The notes under the pieces: model-generated
What the model was told of the DNA's origin: nothing
Seen by the model: the letters and a program-made list of their open reading frames with translations, nothing else
Database searches by the model: none
NCBI RefSeq assembly: GCF_014645895.1
Contig: NZ_BMMP01000002.1
Coordinates: 496,001-560,000, forward strand
DNA: 64,000 nt
Reading direction: 5' to 3'
Source: Streptomyces daqingensis
GTDB taxonomy: Bacteria; Actinomycetota; Actinomycetes; Streptomycetales; Streptomycetaceae
Part shown: in pieces, positions 20,896-46,211 of the stretch
How the letters are laid out: every line of letters starts with the position of its first letter
How positions within the stretch are numbered: the first letter of the stretch is position 1
Program-made: the position numbers and the translations under genes

Positions 20896-21327
20896 TCAGC
20901 AGGTGTAGTCGACCAGATCGAAGGACTCGTAGTGGTCCTCGGTGAAGTAGTCCTCCTCGTCCTCCTCGCCGGTCACGATGCGCTTGGCTCCGCGGTCGTC
21001 CGAGCCGGGCGTCTCCACGGTGTACTCGTGGTAGTAGCCCTCATCCTGGTCGGGGAGGATGCCTTCCCGGTTCTGGAAGACGGTTCCGTCCTGCGGGTAC
21101 GGGTAGGGCCCGCCCTGCTCGATGAGGTCGAGTGTCTCGTGGGCCTCGGCCGGCAGTTTCGACTCGCAGATGTCACCGATCTCTGCGGGTGCGACTGCGG
21201 CGGGCGCCGAGACCTTGGGGGCGGAGTCGGCCGTCGCCTGGGCGTACGCCGCGGGACCGCCGACGAGGAGGGAGAGGGACAGGGCACTGAGGGCGCTGAT
21301 GCGCGCGATTCGTGGGGGGAATCTCAT
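20896..21327 (-). CDS. secreted guanyl-specific ribonuclease (RNase Sa type)
   Basis: A 143-residue precursor: signal peptide (about residues 1-29, cleavage near AYAQA), a short Ala/Pro segment, then a complete microbial RNase N1/T1-family domain closely resembling RNase Sa. Expected residues are present: Glu101 in YYHEYTV, Arg112 and Arg116, His132 in DHYESF, and Cys54/Cys143 for the single disulphide. It would cleave RNA 3' of guanosine outside the cell. The mature domain is strongly acidic. ATG 21327 leads directly into the signal peptide, but its GGGAGG lies too close (1 nt), so ATG 21336 is an alternative. No barstar-like inhibitor gene is adjacent. Confidence 0.9.
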   Translation of the reverse strand: MRFPPRIARISALSALSLSLLVGGPAAYAQATADSAPKVSAPAAVAPAEIGDICESKLPAEAHETLDLIEQGGPYPYPQDGTVFQNREGILPDQDEGYYHEYTVETPGSDDRGAKRIVTGEEDEEDYFTEDHYESFDLVDYTC

Positions 21328-22058: not shown

Positions 22059-23201
22059 TCAGGCCCCTCCCAGCCGGCCGTACCGCTCCTCCAGCGCCCG
22101 CAGCCCCTCCGGCGTCGGTGCACCGTGCAGCCGCAGGCGGGCGATACCGCCGTCGGGGAAGATGTCGAGGCGTACGCGCGTCACGGCCGGGAGTCCGTCC
22201 ACGAGAAGGAACCGGTGCGGCGTGTCCGGCTGCAGCCGGGTGCGCGGCAGCAGCTCCAGCCAGTCGCCGTCGTCCCCGTCGCGTCCCCAGAGTGCCGCCC
22301 AGCCCGCCGAGTTGCCCTTCAGGTACCCGGTGTCGATCTCGACGGCGCGGATGCGGGACTGCGCCGCCAGCGCGTACCGGATCCAGTCGTTGCCCGTGTC
22401 GCGCCTCCTGCGCGTCTCCCAGCCGTCGTCCATCTGCCGCGAACGGCCGGGCAGGATGGTGTTCGTGGGCGGCGAGTAGAACCGGTCGGAGGCGTCCTGC
22501 ACGGCGCCGCCGTTCTCCAGGGCGACGACGTCGAAGGTGCCCAGCGCCCTCAACCACCGTGGATCGGGGACGACTTCGCCGTGGACGCGGAGCCTGGCGA
22601 TGCCGCCGTCGGGATGCTGGTTGACGCGCAGATGCGTGAAGCGCCGCTGCTCCTGGACGGTGAAGCCGTTGGCCGCGTGCCCGCCGATGTCGGTCCGGGG
22701 GACGAGCGTCGTCCACTCGACCTCGTCGGCGAGGAGGTCCTCGGGTGAGGGCGCGCCGTCCACGCAAGCGCCCTCGACGGACACGGCGCGGGGGTAGTTG
22801 CCCCGGAAGTGCGCGGTGTCGACGACGATGCCGCGCACGACGCCCGGGGCTCCGAGCCGCACCAGCGCCCAGTCGTGGTCTGCGGCGGTGGGGTGCGGGG
22901 CGTCAGCTCCGGTGCCGCGCCTGCGCCGCGTCTCCCAGCCGTCCATGATCTTGCCCTTGTGGCCGAAACGGCCGGGGTCGAACTCGGCGGGCCCCGGCTT
23001 GAGGAGGTTCTCCCGCTCGGCGAAGAACTCGTCGTTCGCCGCGATCACGCCTGCTCCGAGACGTCTGTCGGCGAGGTCGGGGAGGTCGGTGAAGGGGAAG
23101 CCGGTGGTGCGGTAGTCGGCGTAGGGGTCGCCGCCCTGGTAAGGCTGCGCGTCCCCCGTGAAGGGCGCGGTAGCGGCGGCTGCCGGGCGCGTTGAGGTCA
23201 T
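22059..23201 (-). CDS. alc: allantoicase
   Basis: A 380-residue enzyme with the typical duplicated jelly-roll architecture: two homologous halves, each containing [13 protein letters not shown] / [12 protein letters not shown], a [10 protein letters not shown] / [10 protein letters not shown] segment, and the [14 protein letters not shown] / [13 protein letters not shown] signature. It hydrolyses allantoate to ureidoglycolate and urea. The N-terminal [32 protein letters not shown] is diagnostic. ATG 23201 overlaps the stop of allB (ATGA), so allB-alc is one coupled unit. No ureidoglycolate lyase gene is seen in the window for the next step. Confidence 0.95.
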
Positions 23202-24553
23202 GAGGTGGGCCTCTCGATGAGTTGTCCGGTCTGCTGCAGTGGGCGTCCGTGGTCGGCGATCTGCTCCCCGCGCAGCCAGGTCGACCGCACGACGCCGTAC
23301 AGGGTGCTTCCGGCGTACGCGGTGACGGGGTTGCGGTGCTGCAGCCGCGCCGGGTCGACGGTGAAGGCGGCGTCCGGGTCGAGGACGGCGAAGTCGGCGT
23401 CGTACCCCGGCGCGACGGCGCCCTTGCGGCCGTGCAGACCGGCGAGCCGCGCGGGTCCCGCCGACATCCACCGCACGACGTCCTCCAGGGTGTGGCCGCG
23501 CCTGCGGGCCTCCGTCCACACGGCCGGCAGTCCGAGCTGGAGGGAGGAGATGCCGCCCCATGCCGTGCCGAAGTCGCCGTCCTTCAACTCGGGCGTGCAG
23601 GGCGAGTGGTCGCTCACGACGCAGTCGATGACGCCGTCCGCCAGGCCCTGCCACAGCGCGTCCTGGTTCGCACGCTCGCGGATGGGCGGGCAGCACTTGA
23701 ACTCGGTGGCCCCGTCCGGGACGTCCTCGGCGGTGAGGGTGAGGAAGTGGGGGCAGGTCTCGACGCTCAGCCGCACGCCCTCACCGCGGGCCTCCGCGAT
23801 GAGCGGCAGGGCGTCCGACGAGGACAGATGCAGCACGTGCACCCGGGCGTCCGACTCGCGGGCGACGGCGACGAGTCGGGCGATGGCGTCGTTCTCCGCC
23901 GCACGGGGGCGGGAGGCGAGGAAGTCGGCGTAGGCACGTCCGCCCCGCTGCGGGGCCAAATGTGCGGGGTCCTCGGCGTGCACGATCAGCAGGCCGCCGA
24001 AGCCCGCGATCTCGGCCGCGGCGGCGGCCAGCCGGGACGCGTCCAGCTCCGGGAACTCCTCGACGCCCGAGGGCGAGAGGAAGCACTTGAAGCCGAAGAC
24101 GCCCGCCTCGTGCAGGGGCCGCAGGTCGGGGACGTTCCCGGGGATCGCGCCGCCCCAGAAGCCCGTGTCGACGTGCGCCTTGCCTCGGGCCACGTCCTGC
24201 TTGACCCCCAGGTTGGCCACGTTCGTGGTGGGGGGCAGCGAGTTCAGCGGCATGTCCAGCAGCGTGGTGACACCGCCGGCCGCGGCGGCCCGCGTCGCGG
24301 TGAGGAAGCCCTCCCACTCGGTGCGCCCGGGATCGTTGACGTGCACGTGGGTGTCCACGAGCCCGGGCAGTAGGACGTCGCCGCCCACGTCCACCAGCCG
24401 TGCGCCGCCGGGGAGTTCGGCGTCGTGGACCTCGACGGAGGCGATCCGGCCGTCCGCGACGAAGACCGACGCCGGCCGCGTACCCTCGGGTGTGACGACG
24501 CGCGTCGAGCGCAGCACGAGCCGCACACCGGCTCCGGAGTCGGGCACGGACAC
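23198..24553 (-). CDS. allB: allantoinase
   Basis: A 451-residue amidohydrolase that opens the allantoin ring to give allantoate. Metal motif [14 protein letters not shown] is at about residues 64-77. The candidate carboxylated Lys is in [11 protein letters not shown], further metal ligands are in IVHAED and HVLHLSS, and the last Asp is in [16 protein letters not shown] 24553 is used, with GGAGGGG 7 nt upstream. It heads the allB-alc unit, divergent from the IclR-type regulator. Two different palindromes occupy the intergenic region. Confidence 0.95.
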
Positions 24554-24569
24554 TGCACACCCCTCCTTT

Positions 24570-24584
24570 TCAACATTCTGTTGA
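24570..24584. promoter_or_regulatory. palindrome TCAACA-TTC-TGTTGA before allB
   Basis: A perfect 15-bp inverted repeat lies 16 bp upstream of the allB start codon, partly adjacent to the ribosome site. The same palindrome with a different 3-bp spacer occurs before uraD at 43549-43563, and a TCAACA half-site before aceB at about 27203, suggesting a shared regulator of ureide and urate genes. Confidence 0.6.
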
Positions 24585-24634
24585 TTGAGATCTTCTTGGC
24601 GATCCCCGCGCCCGTCAAGACACCGGACAGTGGC

Positions 24635-24655
24635 TACTTCCGTTCTATGGAAGTA
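24635..24655. promoter_or_regulatory. palindrome TACTTCC-N7-GGAAGTA between allB and allR
   Basis: Seven-bp perfect arms surround a 7-bp spacer. Its core, TTCC-N7-GGAA (24638-24652), recurs before aceB (27221-27235) and hyi (46197-46211). The position between the divergent allB and IclR-type regulator genes makes it the natural candidate operator for that regulator. Confidence 0.65.
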
Positions 24656-26946: not shown

Positions 26947-27353
26947 CGCCGCGGGCGGTACGGCAGGCTCGCCTCGCCTGAACGGCCCGCGGGTTTCGCC
27001 GGCCGCAGGTGCGGAACCCAGCAACCCACCGGAGTCCGGCGCCTCACCGGAAGCCCCGGCGACACGGCCGGAAGCCCCGGCCGGGCCTGCCCGCCGGGCG
27101 GTCGGCCGCCGCCGCGCGATCGTGCGGTGACGGTTGCCGGTCCACTCGTGGCACGGCGAGCCATCAGGCGCTCACGGCGAACGAGTGAGAGATGTCTCGA
27201 CGTCAACAGACCCTTGCTCATTCCACTATGAGGAAACTAGTCTCCACAGTTCAGAAGCCTCCCCCGAGCCGGGGCGTGCCCGCCGAAGGCGGACCGCGAG
27301 TCCCGCTCGGCCAGCGGCACTCCGTGCCGCACGCATGAAGGAGAGTGACCCCC
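26947..27353. other. intergenic gap before aceB
   Basis: About 407 bp. The first 250 bp are GC-rich with no supported gene. The last 160 bp become AT-richer and contain a TCAACA half-site (27203-27208), the TTCC-N7-GGAA palindrome (27221-27235) and, just before aceB, GAAGGAGAG. This part is the probable aceB promoter region. Confidence 0.6.
27221..27235. promoter_or_regulatory. TTCC-N7-GGAA palindrome before aceB
   Basis: TTCC-ACTATGA-GGAA has the same arms and spacing as the palindromes before allB/allR and hyi. It lies 118 bp upstream of the aceB start, in the AT-richer promoter zone. Control by the IclR-type regulator at 24764-25576 is the simplest inference. Confidence 0.6.
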
Positions 27354-38432: not shown

Positions 38433-39884
38433 TCACCTTCCCGAAGCCGGGTCCGTCCGGTCCTCGCGGGCGGGTCCCTCCTCCGCGGGGCCGGCGCCGT
38501 CGTCGCCGCGGCGCGAGCTCCGCCAGTGGTGGAAGACCAGGTTGAGCAGGACCGCCGTCGCGCAGCCCGTGGAGATGCCCGAGTCGAGGATGATGCGGGC
38601 GCTGCCGGGCAGCACGTGGTAGAAGTCCGGCGCGGCGACCGGGACGAGCCCCACCGCGAGGGACACCGCGACGATCACGATGTTGTCGTCGTTGCCGAGG
38701 TCCGCCCTGGCCAGGGTGCGTATGCCGCTCGCCGCGACGGAGCCGAAGAGGACGACGCCCGCCCCGCCCAGCACCGGCTGCGGCACGGTGGCGATGAGGG
38801 CGGCCGCCACAGGGCAGAGCCCCAGCAGGATCAGGATGCCGCCGCCCGCCGCGACCACCCAGCGGCTGCGGATCTTCGTCATCGCGACGAGGCCGATGTT
38901 CTGGGCGAAGGCCGTGGCGAGGAAGCCGTTGAAGAAGGGGCTGACGAAGGAGCCCAGGGTGTCGGCGCGGAGTCCGGCCGCGATGGTCTTCTCGTCGGCC
39001 GGGCGCTCCACGATCTCGCCCAGCGCCAGCATGTCGGCGGTGGACTCCGTCATCGAGACGAGCATGACGACGCACATCGAGACGATCGCGGCCACGGCGA
39101 ACTGCGGCGCTCCGAAGTGGAACGGCGTGGGGAAGCCGACGAGTCCGGCGGACTTCAGCGCGCTGAAGTCCGTCAGCCCGACGGGTATCGCGATCAGCGT
39201 CCCCACGGCCAGGCCGATCAGTACGGCGATCTGCTTGACGAAGCCGCGCGTGAAGCGCCGCAGCAGCACCACGACGAGGAGCGTCACCCCCGCCATGGCG
39301 ATGTTCTTCGCCGCGCCGAACGAGGGCTCCGCCGGGTCGCCGCCCTGCGCCCAGTTGAAGGCGACCGGCATGAGCGAGACGCCGATGAGGGTGATGACGG
39401 TGCCGGTGACCACCGGCGGGAAGAAGCGCACGAGCTTGCCGAAGTACGGGGCGACGACGAAGCCCAGCGCCGCCGCCACCATGCAGGCGCCGAAGATGAC
39501 CGGCAGCGCGTTCTCGGCTCCCTCGGACTTGTTGATGGCGAGCATCGGGGCGACGGAGGCGAACGTCACGCCGTTGACGAAGGGCAACCGGGCGCCGATC
39601 TTCCACACGCCGACCGTCTGCAGCAGGGTCGCGACGCCTGCGAGGAAGAGGCTCGCGCCGGTGAGGAAGGTCAGTTCGGTGACGGAGAGGCCGACTGCCG
39701 CTCCGATGATGAGCGGGGGAGCCACCACGCCCGCGTACATGGCCGCGACGTGCTGCAGCCCGGTGGTGACGAGTCTGAGGGGCGGCAGCGTCTGGTCGAC
39801 GGGGTGCCTGTCCTCTCGCGCCGGTGTGTGCGCGCTGTCCGGTTGCGTGCTGCTCCGGTCACTGGACCTGGGCTTCTCGGCCAC
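38433..39884 (-). CDS. NCS2-family purine/pyrimidine permease (xanthine/uracil type)
   Basis: A 483-residue nucleobase:cation symporter with about 12-14 helices. Diagnostic segments: GLQHVAAMYAGVVAPPLIIG (N-terminal NCS2 motif), LPVIFGACMVAAALGFVVAPYFGKLVRFFPPVVTGTVITLIG, the QNIGLVAMTKIRSR loop, and SMTESTADMLALGEI with the substrate-related Glu. Neighbouring urate genes make xanthine or urate the likely cargo. GTG 39884 is used. It is the last gene of the leftward uraD-uraH-pucL-deaminase-permease series. Confidence 0.9.
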   Translation of the reverse strand: MAEKPRSSDRSSTQPDSAHTPAREDRHPVDQTLPPLRLVTTGLQHVAAMYAGVVAPPLIIGAAVGLSVTELTFLTGASLFLAGVATLLQTVGVWKIGARLPFVNGVTFASVAPMLAINKSEGAENALPVIFGACMVAAALGFVVAPYFGKLVRFFPPVVTGTVITLIGVSLMPVAFNWAQGGDPAEPSFGAAKNIAMAGVTLLVVVLLRRFTRGFVKQIAVLIGLAVGTLIAIPVGLTDFSALKSAGLVGFPTPFHFGAPQFAVAAIVSMCVVMLVSMTESTADMLALGEIVERPADEKTIAAGLRADTLGSFVSPFFNGFLATAFAQNIGLVAMTKIRSRWVVAAGGGILILLGLCPVAAALIATVPQPVLGGAGVVLFGSVAASGIRTLARADLGNDDNIVIVAVSLAVGLVPVAAPDFYHVLPGSARIILDSGISTGCATAVLLNLVFHHWRSSRRGDDGAGPAEEGPAREDRTDPASGR

Positions 39885-40101: not shown

Positions 40102-41496
40102 TCAGGCGCCGCCGGCCGCGATGTGGGACAGGCGGCGTGCCTGGTCACGGGCGTTGCGGGCCACGTCGTCCTCGTCGGCGTTGGTGAGCCGGCCGTCCTC
40201 GGCGACGGGGCGGCCGTTGACGAGGGAGAGCGTGACCGGTGCCGCCGCGCCGAGGACGAGCGCGGCGACGGGGTCGGCGATCGACGAGTGCCCGATGCCG
40301 TCCAGGCGCCACAACACGAGGTCGGCGAGTTTGCCGGGCTCCAGGGAGCCGATCTCCGCCTCCCTGCCGAGGACCCGCGCACCGCCGTAGGTGCCCAGGC
40401 GCAGCGCCTGGCGTGCGGTGAGCGCCTTCTCCTTGCGGGGGCCGAGCCGGTTGAGCAGGAGTGCGTTGCGCAGTTCGGTGTGGAGTTCGCCGGACTCGTT
40501 GGAGGCCGTGCCGTCCACGCCGAGTCCGACGGGGAGGCCGGCCGCGAGCATGTCCGGGACCCGGGCGATGCCCGCGGCGAGCCGGGCGTTGGACGACGGG
40601 CAGTGGGCGACGCCCGTGCCGGTGCGTGCGAAGGCGGCGATGTCGGAGTCGTTCATGTGCACGCAGTGCGCCATCCAGACGTCGTCGCCCAGCCAGCCCA
40701 CCGATTCGAGGTAGTCGGTGGGGCCCATGCCGAACCGCTCGTGGCAGAACTTCTCCTCCTCCACGGTCTCCGAGCCGTGCGTGTGCAGCCGTACGCCCTT
40801 GCGCCGGGCCAACTCGGCGGCCTGGCGCAGCAGTTCCGTGGTGACGGAGAAGGGCGAGCAGGGGGCTACGCCGATGCGCAGCATGGAGTCGAACGAGGGG
40901 TCGTGGTAGGTGTCGACGGCCTCCTCGGTGGCGGCGAGCGCGCCGTCGGTGGTCTCCACCGCGAAGTCGGGCGGGAGCCCGCCGTCGGACTCCCCCAGGT
41001 CCATGGACCCGCGGGTCGGGTTGAAGCGGACGCCCAGTTCGCGTGCGGCGCGGATCTCGGCGCCGAGCAGGTCGCCCGCGCCGCGCGGGAAGACGTAGTG
41101 GTGGTCCATGGCGGTGGTGACGCCGCCGCGCGCCATCATGCCGAGCGAGCCGCGCGCGGCGGCGTAGACCATCTCCTCGTCGATGCGCGCCCAGGTGGGG
41201 TAGAGGGCGACGAGCCAGTCGAAGAGGTTGGCGTCCTGCGCCAGACCGCGGGTGAGCCACTGGTAGAAGTGGTGGTGGGTGTTGACGAGTCCCGGCGTGA
41301 CGAGGTGTCCCGTCCCGTCGACGCGCCGCACGACACCCGTCAGACCCTCGGGCGCCGCTCCGGCGCCGACGGACTCGATCCGGTTCCCCGCGACGACCAC
41401 GTGGCCCGCGGCGTGTTCGGTGTCGTGCGCGTCGACGGTTGCGACGGCGCAGTTCTCGATGACTACGCGCTCGGTCGTGCCTGCCGTGTCGGCCAT
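40102..41496 (-). CDS. 8-oxoguanine deaminase (AtzF/TrzN-type amidohydrolase)
   Basis: A 464-residue amidohydrolase. Metal ligands are visible in GLVNTHHHFYQWLTRG (HxH), HTHGSETVEEEKFC (His), HCVHMNDSD (His) and VDGTASNESGE (Asp). The sequence pattern fits 8-oxoguanine deaminase, converting 8-oxoguanine to urate; related hydroxydechloroatrazine hydrolases are the alternative. ATG 41496 is used. Location between the permease and uricase in one direction supports urate production. Confidence 0.85.
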   Translation of the reverse strand: MADTAGTTERVVIENCAVATVDAHDTEHAAGHVVVAGNRIESVGAGAAPEGLTGVVRRVDGTGHLVTPGLVNTHHHFYQWLTRGLAQDANLFDWLVALYPTWARIDEEMVYAAARGSLGMMARGGVTTAMDHHYVFPRGAGDLLGAEIRAARELGVRFNPTRGSMDLGESDGGLPPDFAVETTDGALAATEEAVDTYHDPSFDSMLRIGVAPCSPFSVTTELLRQAAELARRKGVRLHTHGSETVEEEKFCHERFGMGPTDYLESVGWLGDDVWMAHCVHMNDSDIAAFARTGTGVAHCPSSNARLAAGIARVPDMLAAGLPVGLGVDGTASNESGELHTELRNALLLNRLGPRKEKALTARQALRLGTYGGARVLGREAEIGSLEPGKLADLVLWRLDGIGHSSIADPVAALVLGAAAPVTLSLVNGRPVAEDGRLTNADEDDVARNARDQARRLSHIAAGGA

Positions 41497-41651: not shown

Positions 41652-42575
41652 TCAGAGGTTGGTCATGTCCACCGGTATCCGCGCCTGGGCTCCGTCCCGC
41701 AGGACGGTCGCCTCGATGAGCCCGTACGGGCGGTCGGCGGCGAGGTAGACGGCTCCGTCGGCGGCCTCGTTCTCGATGCCGAAGACCTTCAGGTCCGCCT
41801 TGAAGTGGTGCTTGTTGGGCATGGAGAAGCGGATCTCGTCCAACTCGTCCCGCCCTTCGATGACTTGGGACCCCATCTCGTAGAGCGTCTGCTGCAGGGA
41901 GAGGGAGTAGGTCTCGGCGAAGGCCCGCAGCAGGAGCGTCCGGACGCCGGCGTAGCACTCGTCCCAGTCGGGCGGCGTGCCCTCGCCGTTCCAGTTGTGC
42001 CGCCACACGGCGCTGACCTCCGTGGCGAGGATGCGGTCGTAGTCCTCTTCGAGCGTCGTGTACCTGTCCTTGATGTATCCCCAGAACTCCGAGTCGGTGG
42101 AGTTGAGGACGGTCAGGCCCTTGAGCCCGCCGAGCACCTCGAGGCTTCCGCCGTCGCGGCTGTCGTAGGTGATCTGCGCGGTGCGGATCTCGCCTCCGTT
42201 GCGCACGAAGGAGTGCGGGGCGTCGCCGCCCGAGGTGGCGATGCGGTCCCACGCGTACTCCTCGATGCGGATACGCGCCGTGGTGATGGGTTCGGTGCTG
42301 TCCACGAAGTGCCGGGCCAGTGCGATGCCGAAGTCCTCGGCCGTCCGGATGCCGTGCTCCTTGGCGAAGGCGAAGACGGTGTTCTTCGTGGTGTCCGTCG
42401 GCAGGACGTGCGCGTTGGAGCCGGAGTAGTGCACCTCGTCCAGGTCGCCGCTGAGGGCGACGGAGACGTTGAGGTCCTTGATGTGGTGGGTCCCGCCGTC
42501 CCTGGTGATCTTGACGACGCGGTTCTCCGCCTTGCCGTACTGGTTCTGGCCGAGAACCGTGATCGGGCTTGCCAT
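41652..42575 (-). CDS. pucL: urate oxidase (uricase)
   Basis: A 307-residue cofactor-free uricase oxidising urate to 5-hydroxyisourate. Two T-fold halves are evident: QNQYGKAENRVVKITRDG with the catalytic Lys, LPTDTTKNTVFAFAKEHG with the catalytic Thr, then FSMPNKHHFKADLKVFGI with the His and Asn of the catalytic set. The C-terminal end lacks the eukaryotic SKL peroxisomal signal. ATG 42575 starts 7 nt after the uraH stop (42583), so the genes are co-transcribed. Confidence 0.95.
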   Translation of the reverse strand: MASPITVLGQNQYGKAENRVVKITRDGGTHHIKDLNVSVALSGDLDEVHYSGSNAHVLPTDTTKNTVFAFAKEHGIRTAEDFGIALARHFVDSTEPITTARIRIEEYAWDRIATSGGDAPHSFVRNGGEIRTAQITYDSRDGGSLEVLGGLKGLTVLNSTDSEFWGYIKDRYTTLEEDYDRILATEVSAVWRHNWNGEGTPPDWDECYAGVRTLLLRAFAETYSLSLQQTLYEMGSQVIEGRDELDEIRFSMPNKHHFKADLKVFGIENEAADGAVYLAADRPYGLIEATVLRDGAQARIPVDMTNL

Positions 42576-42582
42576 ATCGCTG

Positions 42583-42954
42583 TCAGCTCCCTCGGTATAC
42601 GGAGTAGCCGAACGGGTTGAGCAGCAGCGGCACGTGGTAGTGCTCGCCCGCGGCGACGGCGAAGACCACGGTCACCTCGGGGAAGAAGCTGTGCGGACCG
42701 CCGTCGCTCCCCTTGCTCCGCAGGTAGGGCTCCACCTCGAAGGTGAGCCGCGCGTGTGTGGCACCTCCGGGCAGCGCCGGAAGGTCCTTGCAGCGTCCGT
42801 CGCCGTCCGTACGGGACGTGGCGTGCGCGCTCCACTCGGCGTCACGGCCCGTACGCACCGACAGCTCGACGGCGACGTCCGGGGCGGGACGGCCGGCGCT
42901 GGTGTCCAGGATGTGCGTGGAGACCGAGGCCGCGGTCGTGTCTGCCTTGCTCAT
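42583..42954 (-). CDS. uraH: 5-hydroxyisourate hydrolase (transthyretin-like)
   Basis: A 123-residue transthyretin-related protein. STHILDTSAGRPA (catalytic His), a central RTDGDGRC (Arg), HARLTFEVEPYL and the C-terminal YRGS tetrapeptide with the catalytic His-containing HYHVPLLLNPFGYSVYRGS region are all present. It hydrolyses 5-hydroxyisourate to OHCU. ATG 42954 overlaps the uraD stop (ATGA). Confidence 0.95.
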   Translation of the reverse strand: MSKADTTAASVSTHILDTSAGRPAPDVAVELSVRTGRDAEWSAHATSRTDGDGRCKDLPALPGGATHARLTFEVEPYLRSKGSDGGPHSFFPEVTVVFAVAAGEHYHVPLLLNPFGYSVYRGS

Positions 42955-43472
42955 GCTCGCTGGGGTTCCCTCTCCGCGAGTCCGCTCAGGCGGATCCTGT
43001 TGATCTTCGTCAGTTCGGTTCGTACGTTCTCGCGTTCCGCTTCCGGGGAGTTGGCCAGCCGCGCGCGGGCGGCGTCCCGCATCTGCTCCGCCGTCAGGCC
43101 CGTGGCGCATATGAGGAAGACGTGCCCGAACTTCTCCTGGTAGGCGAGGTTCAGCTGGAGCATCTCCTCCTTCAGCTCCTCCGGCGCCCCTGCCATGCCC
43201 CGCTGCTCCCGTGCGGAGGCCGCGTCCCCGGGCTCGGGACGGCCGATCGGGGGATGGCCCGCCATCGCCTCCGCGAGGCCGCCGGTGTCGAGCGCGGCCG
43301 TCGCGTCGTCGCTCGCGGCGAGCAGATCCTCCGTGCCGGCGTACGGGCGGCGGGCGAGCACCGTCCCGATCCAGGAGCGCGCGGTGCAGACGGACCGGAG
43401 CGCGGCGCGGGCGTCGCTCTCGGTGGACGAGTTCAGCCAGGTCAGGCCTGGTGCTGCGGGGGAAGCTGTCAC
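42951..43472 (-). CDS. uraD: OHCU decarboxylase
   Basis: A 173-residue helical enzyme. The catalytic region AGHPPIGRP (His at about residue 72) and the KFGHVFLICATG segment are diagnostic for 2-oxo-4-hydroxy-4-carboxy-5-ureidoimidazoline decarboxylase, which gives (S)-allantoin. GTG 43472 is used. It is the first gene of the urate operon (uraD-uraH-pucL-deaminase-permease), with a TCAACA-N3-TGTTGA palindrome 77-91 bp upstream of its start. Confidence 0.92.
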   Translation of the reverse strand: MTASPAAPGLTWLNSSTESDARAALRSVCTARSWIGTVLARRPYAGTEDLLAASDDATAALDTGGLAEAMAGHPPIGRPEPGDAASAREQRGMAGAPEELKEEMLQLNLAYQEKFGHVFLICATGLTAEQMRDAARARLANSPEAERENVRTELTKINRIRLSGLAEREPQRA

Positions 43473-43548
43473 TGAGGGACCTCCGGGGGCCTCCGAAGCG
43501 GTGCTGCTCTCCGGCTGGGAACAGCTAAGACCCCCGCGACGCCAGACG

Positions 43549-43563
43549 TCAACACTTTGTTGA
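43549..43563. promoter_or_regulatory. palindrome TCAACA-CTT-TGTTGA before uraD
   Basis: A perfect 15-bp inverted repeat with the same arms as the site before allB (24570-24584). It lies in the 168-bp gap between the kinase stop and the uraD start, in AT-richer sequence, where the urate operon promoter should be. Confidence 0.65.
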
Positions 43564-43640: not shown

Positions 43641-45146
43641 TCACCGCGTGAAGCGGAACGTCTGCTGGTACCGGCCTCCCGCCAGGCTGCGCAGCGCCGA
43701 CTCCAGGCCGTTCTCGCGATCCCTCGTCTCCTGCTTCGCGGCCGAGGCGATCGTGCACTTCAGCACGCCGTCGCCGGCGCGCAGCGGGCGCGGGACCCGC
43801 ACGTCCGCCCCTTCGGCCAGATGGGCCGTCAGGGCGAGCCCCCGCTCGTTCTTCTCCTTCACGAACGTGACCGACGCGACGTCCCGCCACGGCACCGTGA
43901 GGGTACGCGATCCGTGCCGCAGCGAGAGCCCGTCCGCAGCCACCCGCACCGTCCTGGCCCTCAGCAGCGGGAACGCGGCCTTCACCCCGTAGATCAGGTA
44001 CAGCATGGTGGTGAGGAACGCGCACGTGGACGCCACCTTCATGACATCGGACACTCCCCCCGCCACGAGAAGCAGGACGTCGATCGCCGCGGCCCACGTC
44101 AGCGGCCCGCGCACTCGGCGCCAGAACACTTTGGCACCCCACTCCCCGGCCGCGAACACACCGCCCCCCGGCGGCAGTTCACTCTCGGGCTCGAAGGCGG
44201 CCCCATGCGCGATCAGCTCCTGCGGCCCGGTCTCCGCCTCGCCGTCGGCATTCGGTTCGCCCCGCCCCGCGCCGGTGGGCTCGACGTCCGGGAGGGCTCC
44301 GTGCGGGAAGGCATCGTCCGGCGGCGGCTGCTGGCTCGCGAGACGCGTGACGAGTCCGTCGGCGGAGGGCCGGTCCTCAGGGGCCTTCCGCAGGCACTCC
44401 TCAGCCAACTCCCGCAAGCTGTGCGGGAGTCGGCTGAGGTCGGGCTCCTCGTACACGACCCGGAAGAGCAGCGCGTGCGAGGGCCCGTCACCGAAGGGGC
44501 CCGCGCCGGTGGCCGCGTACACGAGGAGGGCGCCCAGGGAGAAGACGTCGGCGGCGGGACCGGCGGCCTGCCCCAGCGCCTGCTCGGGGGCCATGAAACC
44601 GGGGGTGCCCAGGACGGTCCCCACCCGGGTCAGGTCGGTCGCCTCGGCGGTCTCCAGCGTCTCGAGGGCCTTGGAGATGCCGAAGTCGATGACCCGCGGG
44701 CCGTCGTCGAGGAGCAGGACGTTGGACGGCTTGAGGTCGCGGTGCACGAGGCCGCTCTTGTGGAAAGACGCGAGGGCCTCGGCCAGGCCGCCGCCGAGCC
44801 TGCGCACCTCCCACTCTCCCAACGGGCCCTGGCGGGCGACGCGTTCGGAGAGCGAGACGCCGTCGACGTACTGGCTCGCGATCCACGGCACCCGGGCGTC
44901 GGGGTCCGCGTCGACGACCTGAGCGGCCCAGAAGCCGCCCGCCCGCATCGCGAGTTTCGCCTCGCGCCGGAAGCGGGCGCGGAACCCCGGGGAGGACGCC
45001 AGGTCCTCCCGTACGAGCTTCACGGCGACCCGCCGCCCCGCCGGGGACTCACCGAGGAACACCCGGCCCATACCGCCCGAACCCAGGCGGTGCGTCAACC
45101 GGAACGGACCGACGACTCGCGGGTCCCCGGCTTCCAACGGCTCCAT
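43641..45146 (-). CDS. membrane-anchored Ser/Thr protein kinase
   Basis: A 501-residue Hanks-type kinase. The Gly-rich loop LGSGGMGRVFLG is at about residues 22-33, followed by VAVKLV with the ATP-binding Lys, the catalytic loop HRDLKPSN (about 138), and VIDFGI in place of canonical DFG context; GTPGFMAPEQA marks the activation segment. After the kinase domain (to about 275) come a low-complexity linker, two hydrophobic segments (about 352-370 and 372-395) and a C-terminal PH-like domain (VRVAADGLSLRHGSRTLTVPWRDVASVTFV). No PASTA repeats. It is set among purine catabolism genes, which is unusual for this family. ATG 45146 is used. Confidence 0.9.
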   Translation of the reverse strand: MEPLEAGDPRVVGPFRLTHRLGSGGMGRVFLGESPAGRRVAVKLVREDLASSPGFRARFRREAKLAMRAGGFWAAQVVDADPDARVPWIASQYVDGVSLSERVARQGPLGEWEVRRLGGGLAEALASFHKSGLVHRDLKPSNVLLLDDGPRVIDFGISKALETLETAEATDLTRVGTVLGTPGFMAPEQALGQAAGPAADVFSLGALLVYAATGAGPFGDGPSHALLFRVVYEEPDLSRLPHSLRELAEECLRKAPEDRPSADGLVTRLASQQPPPDDAFPHGALPDVEPTGAGRGEPNADGEAETGPQELIAHGAAFEPESELPPGGGVFAAGEWGAKVFWRRVRGPLTWAAAIDVLLLVAGGVSDVMKVASTCAFLTTMLYLIYGVKAAFPLLRARTVRVAADGLSLRHGSRTLTVPWRDVASVTFVKEKNERGLALTAHLAEGADVRVPRPLRAGDGVLKCTIASAAKQETRDRENGLESALRSLAGGRYQQTFRFTR

Positions 45147-45315: not shown

Positions 45316-45711
45316 TCATTCTTCGTCGCGGCGCTTCTCGGCGCGCTTCTCCTCCTGGGAGTTGATGTAGTTGTAGACGGTGAACCGGCTGACGCCGAGG
45401 GCGCCGGCCACGGTCTCCACGCCATGCCGTACGGAGAACGCGCCGCGGGTCTCCAGCAGGCGCACCACCGACTGCTTCGCCTTGCGGTCGAGCTGGGCCA
45501 GCGGCATGCCGTGGCGGCGCTCCAGCTCGGCCAGGATGTGGTCGAGGGAGTCCGAGAGGTGCGGCAGCCGGACGGCGAGGACGTCCCGCCCCTCCCAGGC
45601 GAGCACCACGTCGTCGCCCTGCGCCTCCTCGGGGGCGATCATCTCGCCGCCCATCGCGTCCACGAGGGGTTTGACCGCGGCGGCGAACCTGTCCTGCTCG
45701 CTGCCGCTCAC
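45316..45711 (-). CDS. DauR-like helix-turn-helix protein
   Basis: A 131-residue protein. The N-terminal part (about 1-60) is an alpha/beta segment; the C-terminal part (about 75-120) reads LDRKAKQSVVRLLETRGAFSVRHGVETVAGALGVSRFTVYNYINS, a tightly conserved HTH found at the end of DauR/YheO regulators. It lacks their PAS-like domain. It is translationally coupled to the gene upstream (GTGA) and lies beside the glyoxylate-salvage operon, so it may be a local regulator; its target is unknown. Confidence 0.75.
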   Translation of the reverse strand: MSGSEQDRFAAAVKPLVDAMGGEMIAPEEAQGDDVVLAWEGRDVLAVRLPHLSDSLDHILAELERRHGMPLAQLDRKAKQSVVRLLETRGAFSVRHGVETVAGALGVSRFTVYNYINSQEEKRAEKRRDEE

Positions 45712-46025
45712 GCGCTGCCCCGGGGGCGCTCGGAGGGGGTGCCGCCGGAGGGGCTCCCGCCGGACGGGCCGGCGCCGCTCGCGCCGTCGTCGACGACGTT
45801 GACCTGCAGCGAGATACGCGTGGCCCCGGCCTCCAGGGACTCGCGGAGCAGGGAGTCGACCACGCTCAGCACCTGCTCGGCCGCCCCTTCGGCGGTGTTG
45901 CCGAACGGGCCGACGTCCACCGAATCGAGCTGCGCCGCCTGCACGACCTGGCGGGCCACCAGCGCGTGGTCCGGGGCCTCGTCCAGATCGAAGGGCTCGG
46001 TCGTGAACTCAACTCGCAATCGCAC
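45708..46025 (-). CDS. small thiamine-binding-fold protein (MTH1187/YkoF-like)
   Basis: A 105-residue protein. The body (about residues 1-80) shows the ferredoxin-like pattern of MTH1187/YkoF thiamine-binding proteins: LRVEFTTEPF, then VVQAAQLDSVDVGPFGNTAEGAAEQVLSVVDSLLRESLEAGATRISLQVNV. The C-terminus is a Gly/Ser/Pro-rich tail. GTG 46025 is used. It forms a coupled pair with the HTH gene. The proximity to gcl, a ThDP enzyme, makes thiamine binding attractive, but this is inference and the fold call is tentative. Confidence 0.5.
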   Translation of the reverse strand: MRLRVEFTTEPFDLDEAPDHALVARQVVQAAQLDSVDVGPFGNTAEGAAEQVLSVVDSLLRESLEAGATRISLQVNVVDDGASGAGPSGGSPSGGTPSERPRGSA

Positions 46026-46175: not shown

Positions 46176-46211
46176 TTCCATAAAGTAGAAACACGCTTCC
46201 ACAATACGGAA
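46176..46211. promoter_or_regulatory. two tandem TTCC-N7-GGAA-type sites before hyi
   Basis: TTCC-ATAAAGT-AGAA at 46176-46190 is an imperfect copy and TTCC-ACAATAC-GGAA at 46197-46211 a perfect one, 21 bp apart (two helical turns). They lie 64-99 bp upstream of hyi and also face the divergent thiamine-binding/HTH unit. The perfect site matches those before allB/allR and aceB. Confidence 0.7.

Follow-up and report, generated by a model that had tools for sequence, protein, structure and literature searches.

A conserved palindrome as the predicted operator for a two-part purine-catabolism regulator in Streptomyces

Known regulators of purine catabolism

Among the nitrogen sources in soil, purines are a major one. 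MarR repressors of the HucR, PecS and UrtR type keep uricase and purine genes repressed until a purine signal is received. The system described here is proposed to do the same job, but its domain composition is unrelated, with a PF01910 domain, standing alone or fused, as the proposed sensor. AllR of Streptomyces and E. coli also controls the allantoin pathway and has the allB promoter in common with the present system; it belongs, however, to another protein family, and its box is TTCC-N7-GGAA here and KTTGGAAWAWTWTTCCAAC for E. coli (PMC8222616). Like the proposed regulator, the MarR regulators AbsC and SCO3205 read palindromic operators in Streptomyces, but with the consensus TTnAAnnnTCAA (PMC3737563). 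The HbpS-SenS-SenR system has been reported to lower expression of hpxQ-hpxT-hpxO (SCO6209-6211) under oxidative stress (PMC4991794); its predicted site, CCAGCCGCCGTCCGGT, is not the palindrome described below, and it would act in addition.

The closest relatives by domain are the DauR/YheO-type HTH_22 regulators (PF13309), with which the candidate protein shares a C-terminal HTH_22 DNA-binding domain (E=1.4e-19). At 131 aa, it is without the long N-terminal region of the ~208-230 aa paralogues of the same genus, which are separate genes; a YheO-like N-terminal PAS domain was not found in it, PF13309 being the only domain. In contrast to DauR/YheO, which act in D-arginine utilisation, its genomic links are to purine genes, and its partner is a PF01910 domain, encoded separately or in the same chain.

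The window analysed is a 64,000-nucleotide stretch of the Streptomyces daqingensis genome. The palindrome TCAACA-N3-TGTTGA in it very probably serves as operator for a two-part purine-catabolism regulator whose genes are at 45316-46025, and which would repress its targets until an inducer binds. The computations support the palindrome as a conserved site, the genes assigned to it and its association with the protein pair.

The palindrome and its conservation

The predicted sites in the window are:

43549..43563, no strand: predicted palindromic operator of the uraD operon, in the same place in ~100 relatives
24570..24584, no strand: predicted second operator copy, before allB, probably over the transcription start as judged from the allB promoter rows of relatives
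27203..27217, no strand: weak operator copy before aceB, TCAACAGACCCTTGC, three mismatches

The initial annotation had described 15-bp perfect inverted repeats before allB and uraD, and both are there: TCAACATTCTGTTGA at 24570-24584 and TCAACACTTTGTTGA at 43549-43563. A third match with two mismatches or fewer was not found in the window (0.31 expected at up to two mismatches). The motif scan that had been proposed for the whole 6.54 Mb genome returned exact copies before uraD and allB only, where composition alone predicts ~0.016, together with six one-mismatch copies in or near unrelated genes; sites at ureA (urease) and xdh, for which the scan had also been suggested, appear in other genomes. 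Across 199 congeneric genomes, a pattern search with a reversed-pattern control, on which all the genome-wide statistics are based, gave 542 exact palindromes against six for the control, and 191 of the 199 carry at least one. Conservation in relatives, the lack of which had been named as refuting the idea, was found at both positions: the uraD palindrome is kept in nearly every relative, and the allB palindrome has no or one mismatch in 13 of the 16 allB loci examined, with variants such as TCAACAGAACGTTGA and TCAACTTTCTGTTGA. The palindrome is thereby predicted to control genes for urate and allantoin breakdown and related ones.

Target genes

The genes behind the two exact sites in the window are:

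42951..43472, minus strand: uraD, OHCU decarboxylase (Pfam PF09349), first gene of the operon
42583..42954, minus strand: uraH-like gene between uraD and uricase, tentatively named from position and ORF
41652..42575, minus strand: urate oxidase (factor-independent urate hydroxylase; Pfam PF01014, TIGR03383 above cut-off)
40102..41496, minus strand: 8-oxoguanine deaminase (NF006055 above cut-off)
38433..39884, minus strand: xanthine/uracil-family purine permease (Pfam PF00860)
23198..24553, minus strand: allB, allantoinase, target of the second site (ORF and homologues)

Targets were called by annotating the surroundings of ~300 exact matches. The most frequent is uraD (167 sites), followed by the catalase (katA) of the gcl-glxR-hyi cluster (28), DUF6986 (10), allB (9), ureA (6), malic enzyme (3), aceB (2) and purine permeases (2); a cyclophilin-like gene divergent from cydA has eight sites, and two more were assigned to cydA. 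A single palindrome precedes xdh in the distant genome G238, which also has a site before uraO. The targets cover nearly the whole purine route, through xanthine, urate, allantoin, urea and glyoxylate. Urate oxidase produces H2O2, which catalase removes.

The half-site claimed earlier before aceB does exist at 27203, as a copy with three mismatches, and relatives have better ones, exact or with one mismatch (L281, L283, L133); judged against these, the window copy looks like a weak or decayed site.

DUF6986 (PF22484) has a weak likeness to HpcH/HpaI and malyl-CoA lyase. It repeatedly adjoins the purine regulator (L171:5723-6979, L333:8649-9908, L343:7033-8301, L349:8786-9991, L354:1484-2752) and has the palindrome in many genomes; together with the ACT-domain malic enzyme, it may use glyoxylate as substrate. 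In several Streptomyces the palindrome lies 0-10 bp before the cyclophilin-like gene (PF04126), divergent from cydAB (L055:5040, L039:5041, L048:5078, L178:5483, L188:5623). This gene is absent from genomes without the regulator, so that a trans test there gave little. Palindromes lying within genes of LytR type or for transporters (L030, L035, L042, L175, L185) were regarded as coding coincidences and set aside.

Position of the palindrome in the promoters

The predicted promoter elements are:

43547..43552, minus strand: uraD -35, TTGACG, overlapping the right arm of the palindrome (sequence and 89 distinct promoters)
43523..43528, minus strand: putative uraD -10-like element, TTAGCT, after an 18-bp spacer (sequence and conservation profile)
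24613..24618, minus strand: putative allB -35, TTGACG (CTTGACG aligned in relatives)
24589..24594, minus strand: putative allB -10-like element, AAGATC, with the palindrome starting ~5 bp downstream

The conserved block in 89 distinct uraD promoters reads A-g-t-TTTCAACAAA-g-TGTTGACG, then a TA-containing -10 after 18 bp; the palindrome was itself the criterion for choosing these promoters, which leaves the conservation of its flanks as the only independent evidence. In the allB promoters of relatives, CTTGACG, a spacer of ~18 bp and GAAGACT are conserved and the palindrome follows, so it should cover the start point. A TTCCG...CGGAA box lies directly after, or abuts, the allB palindrome in most of those relatives, which suggests an allB promoter common to two repressors; in the window the TTCC box is instead upstream of the palindrome (24638-24652). 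The distance from palindrome to start codon differs between targets. Overlap with the uraD -35, a position after the allB -10 and a varying distance to the start codon are what is expected of a repressor, and the sites over the uraD -35 and the probable allB start point favour repression.

The candidate regulator

The proposed regulator is encoded by two adjoining genes:

45316..45711, minus strand: 131-aa DNA-binding subunit of HTH_22 (DauR-like) type, which is proposed to read the palindrome (PF13309, E=1.4e-19; co-occurrence; AlphaFold pLDDT 90)
45708..46025, minus strand: Thiamine_BP-like (PF01910) partner, proposed sensor, its stop overlapping the HTH gene start (Pfam E=1.9e-4)

The pair lies ~2 kb from one palindrome of the window. 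The HTH_22 domain scores 70.3 bits against a curated cut-off of 29.6. For PF01910, the window protein reaches 21.7 bits against a cut-off of 24.9, an ortholog (L281) 36.4 and a fused protein (L171) 41.2. The two genes are translationally coupled by stop/start overlap in Streptomyces, and PF01910 and HTH_22 are joined in one chain in Amycolatopsis (for example L320:10004-10474), Prauserella, Kutzneria and Actinopolyspora and in G238 (Pseudonocardiaceae and one other distant genome). Fusions were checked with Pfam in G238, one Amycolatopsis and one Actinopolyspora, and the others were identified by length and alignment. Such fusions argue for joint action of the two proteins where they are separate. 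Small heterocycles are the ligands of PF01910 proteins (YkoF, thiamine), and by analogy a sensing role for the PF01910 part is a reasonable inference. Comparison of the HTH model with solved structures gave no significant match; for the fused protein, a model from the single sequence (pLDDT 55) was too poor for use. An exact palindrome before the PF01910 gene in one Streptomycetaceae genome (L231) and a one-mismatch copy there in another genus (L274) suggest autoregulation. No description of an HTH_22/PF01910 purine regulator was found in the available literature that was searched.

A Ser/Thr protein kinase gene (window 43641-45146) stands between the HTH_22 gene and the uraD operator; it is absent from this place in most relatives.

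Co-occurrence of the protein and the palindrome

An HTH_22 match at E <= 1e-8, nearly always a clear ortholog, was found in 191 of the 199 congeners. In a family set of 121 genomes, the palindrome is present in 110 of the 111 that have the HTH_22 protein; among the ten without it, seven have no palindrome, two have only a match inside absC (L400, L401) and one has real sites (G480; Fisher p=1.5e-8). Among 247 genomes of the class, a clear HTH_22 ortholog outside the genus was found in G238 alone, and no other genome outside the genus repeats the palindrome at purine genes. Palindromes in HTH_22-less genomes of this set do not lie before recognised purine genes.

For an independent test, the G238 protein was the sole query against the GTDB collection. 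All 45 non-Streptomyces loci fetched in this way contain an exact palindrome (50 palindromes in 859 kb; none in dinucleotide-resampled sequence, where ~0 are expected). They come from Amycolatopsis, Prauserella, Kutzneria, Nocardia, Nocardioides, Kribbella, Tsukamurella, Saccharopolyspora, Actinopolyspora, Modestobacter, Leekyejoonella and others. In most loci the palindrome follows the HTH gene by 3-430 bp and precedes uraD; the Tsukamurella copy is in the space separating uraD from the regulator gene, which are divergent there. Because the HTH gene and uraD are neighbours in most cases, common inheritance of a single cluster accounts for some of the co-occurrence. Stronger evidence comes from the 45-locus test and from distal sites such as those at DUF6986, malic enzyme and ureA.

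There are counter-cases. Exact sites without an HTH_22 ortholog occur in G187 (uraD; L129:11748) and G120 (allB; L116:2709), each of which has an HTH_22 paralogue; G480, also without the ortholog, has sites at DUF6986 and malic enzyme. The aceB region of G480 ends in a truncated guaD gene, a deletion remnant; of the three genomes with sites and no regulator, only G480 is explained, by this truncated cluster remnant. Conversely, G156 and G455 have the HTH_22 protein without the palindrome.

Alternative explanations

The contrasting motif in the window is:

24638..24652, no strand: TTCC-N7-GGAA box in the allB-allR interval, assigned to AllR

The palindrome could be a second binding site of AllR, an IclR-family protein encoded beside allB. 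Its gene adjoins one palindrome, and AllR of S. coelicolor reportedly controls the allantoin genes (Navone 2015, as cited in PMC12772271). Yet orthologs of AllR (67-84% identical) are found in at least ten genomes that have neither the HTH_22 protein nor a genuine palindrome (G158, G186, G043, G113, G135, G442, G445, G457, G192, G367), and AllR also occurs in many other actinobacteria without the palindrome. The palindrome is thus not wherever AllR is; nor is it of the TTCC-N7-GGAA type, the two being separate sites in the window. In G186, G043 and G445 (L405, L406, L408) the TTCC-N7-GGAA box has been retained near aceB or allR and the palindrome is gone. Persistence of AllR and its box without the palindrome indicates two motifs and two regulators, as the initial annotation had supposed, and makes AllR a very unlikely reader of the palindrome. 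An AbsC-type MarR regulator was suggested by exact palindromes inside absC in nine fetched loci, and was dropped: the match is coding, is confined to some species and occurs without the rest of the system, being the sole match in two HTH_22-less genomes. Moreover, the motif of the close AbsC paralogue SCO3205, TTnAAnnnTCAA, and not TCAACA-N3-TGTTGA, is matched at AbsC's own promoter and the known operator (PMC3737563). That AbsC binds the palindrome is therefore extremely improbable.

It is quite unlikely, too, that another global regulator binds and that the HTH_22 protein merely travels with uraD. Physical linkage of the HTH gene to uraD and the sites in G187, G120 and G480 would fit such a regulator, but the palindrome accompanies the protein in all 45 loci selected by protein outside Streptomyces, and class-wide the palindromes of HTH_22-less genomes are not before recognised purine genes. 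Through this co-occurrence and the protein-selected loci, the DauR-like protein at 45316-45711, the first candidate named at the outset, is the best-supported binder. The same protein might instead activate from the palindrome, since the uraD site overlaps the -35, a position used by some activators. Activation is nonetheless rather unlikely: the allB site is downstream of the -10 and over the start point, distances differ by target, and both promoters have the near-consensus -35 TTGACG. The partner at 45708-46025, the fused form, the wider regulon and the promoter position suggesting repression go beyond the initial annotation.

Two further observations concern AllR and absC. Four TTCC-N7-GGAA boxes occur in the window (0.4 expected), at 21064-21078, 24638-24652, 27221-27235 and 46197-46211; their neighbours, an unassigned gene, allB/allR, aceB and hyi, probably form the AllR regulon. 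In absC, the codons under the exact palindrome (V-N-R-L-L) include rare AGG and TTG (L041:5005, L045:5001, L400:1070); the palindrome there was taken as a coding coincidence.

Proposed mechanism and distribution

For the two-part regulator, the following mechanism is proposed. The HTH_22 subunit would bind the palindrome directly, as a symmetric dimer, with the PF01910 subunit presumably acting as sensor. When inducer is absent, the regulator would sit over the uraD -35 and the allB start region and block transcription. Its release from DNA would follow when the PF01910 part binds a product of purine breakdown, which may be urate or an intermediate close to it in the pathway.

On a broader scale, it is fairly likely that this is a widespread actinobacterial regulator, made of a PF01910 ligand-binding part and an HTH_22 reader that are separate in Streptomyces and fused in Pseudonocardiaceae, and that it governs the conversion of urate, by way of allantoin and urea, into glyoxylate and malate, along with catalase for the removal of H2O2 and DUF6986, an uncharacterised enzyme. 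If so, Streptomyces and many other actinobacteria would gain a defined urate/purine regulator with an operator and a gene list; PF01910 proteins, whose role is mostly unclear, would acquire a regulatory function; and DUF6986 and the ACT-domain malic enzyme would be tied to purine breakdown. Published expression changes fit co-regulation. For example, SCO6209, SCO6247, SCO6248 and SCO4972 are up together in an S. coelicolor morphology mutant (PMC6629963), and SCO6209-6211 are down together under oxidative stress (PMC4991794).
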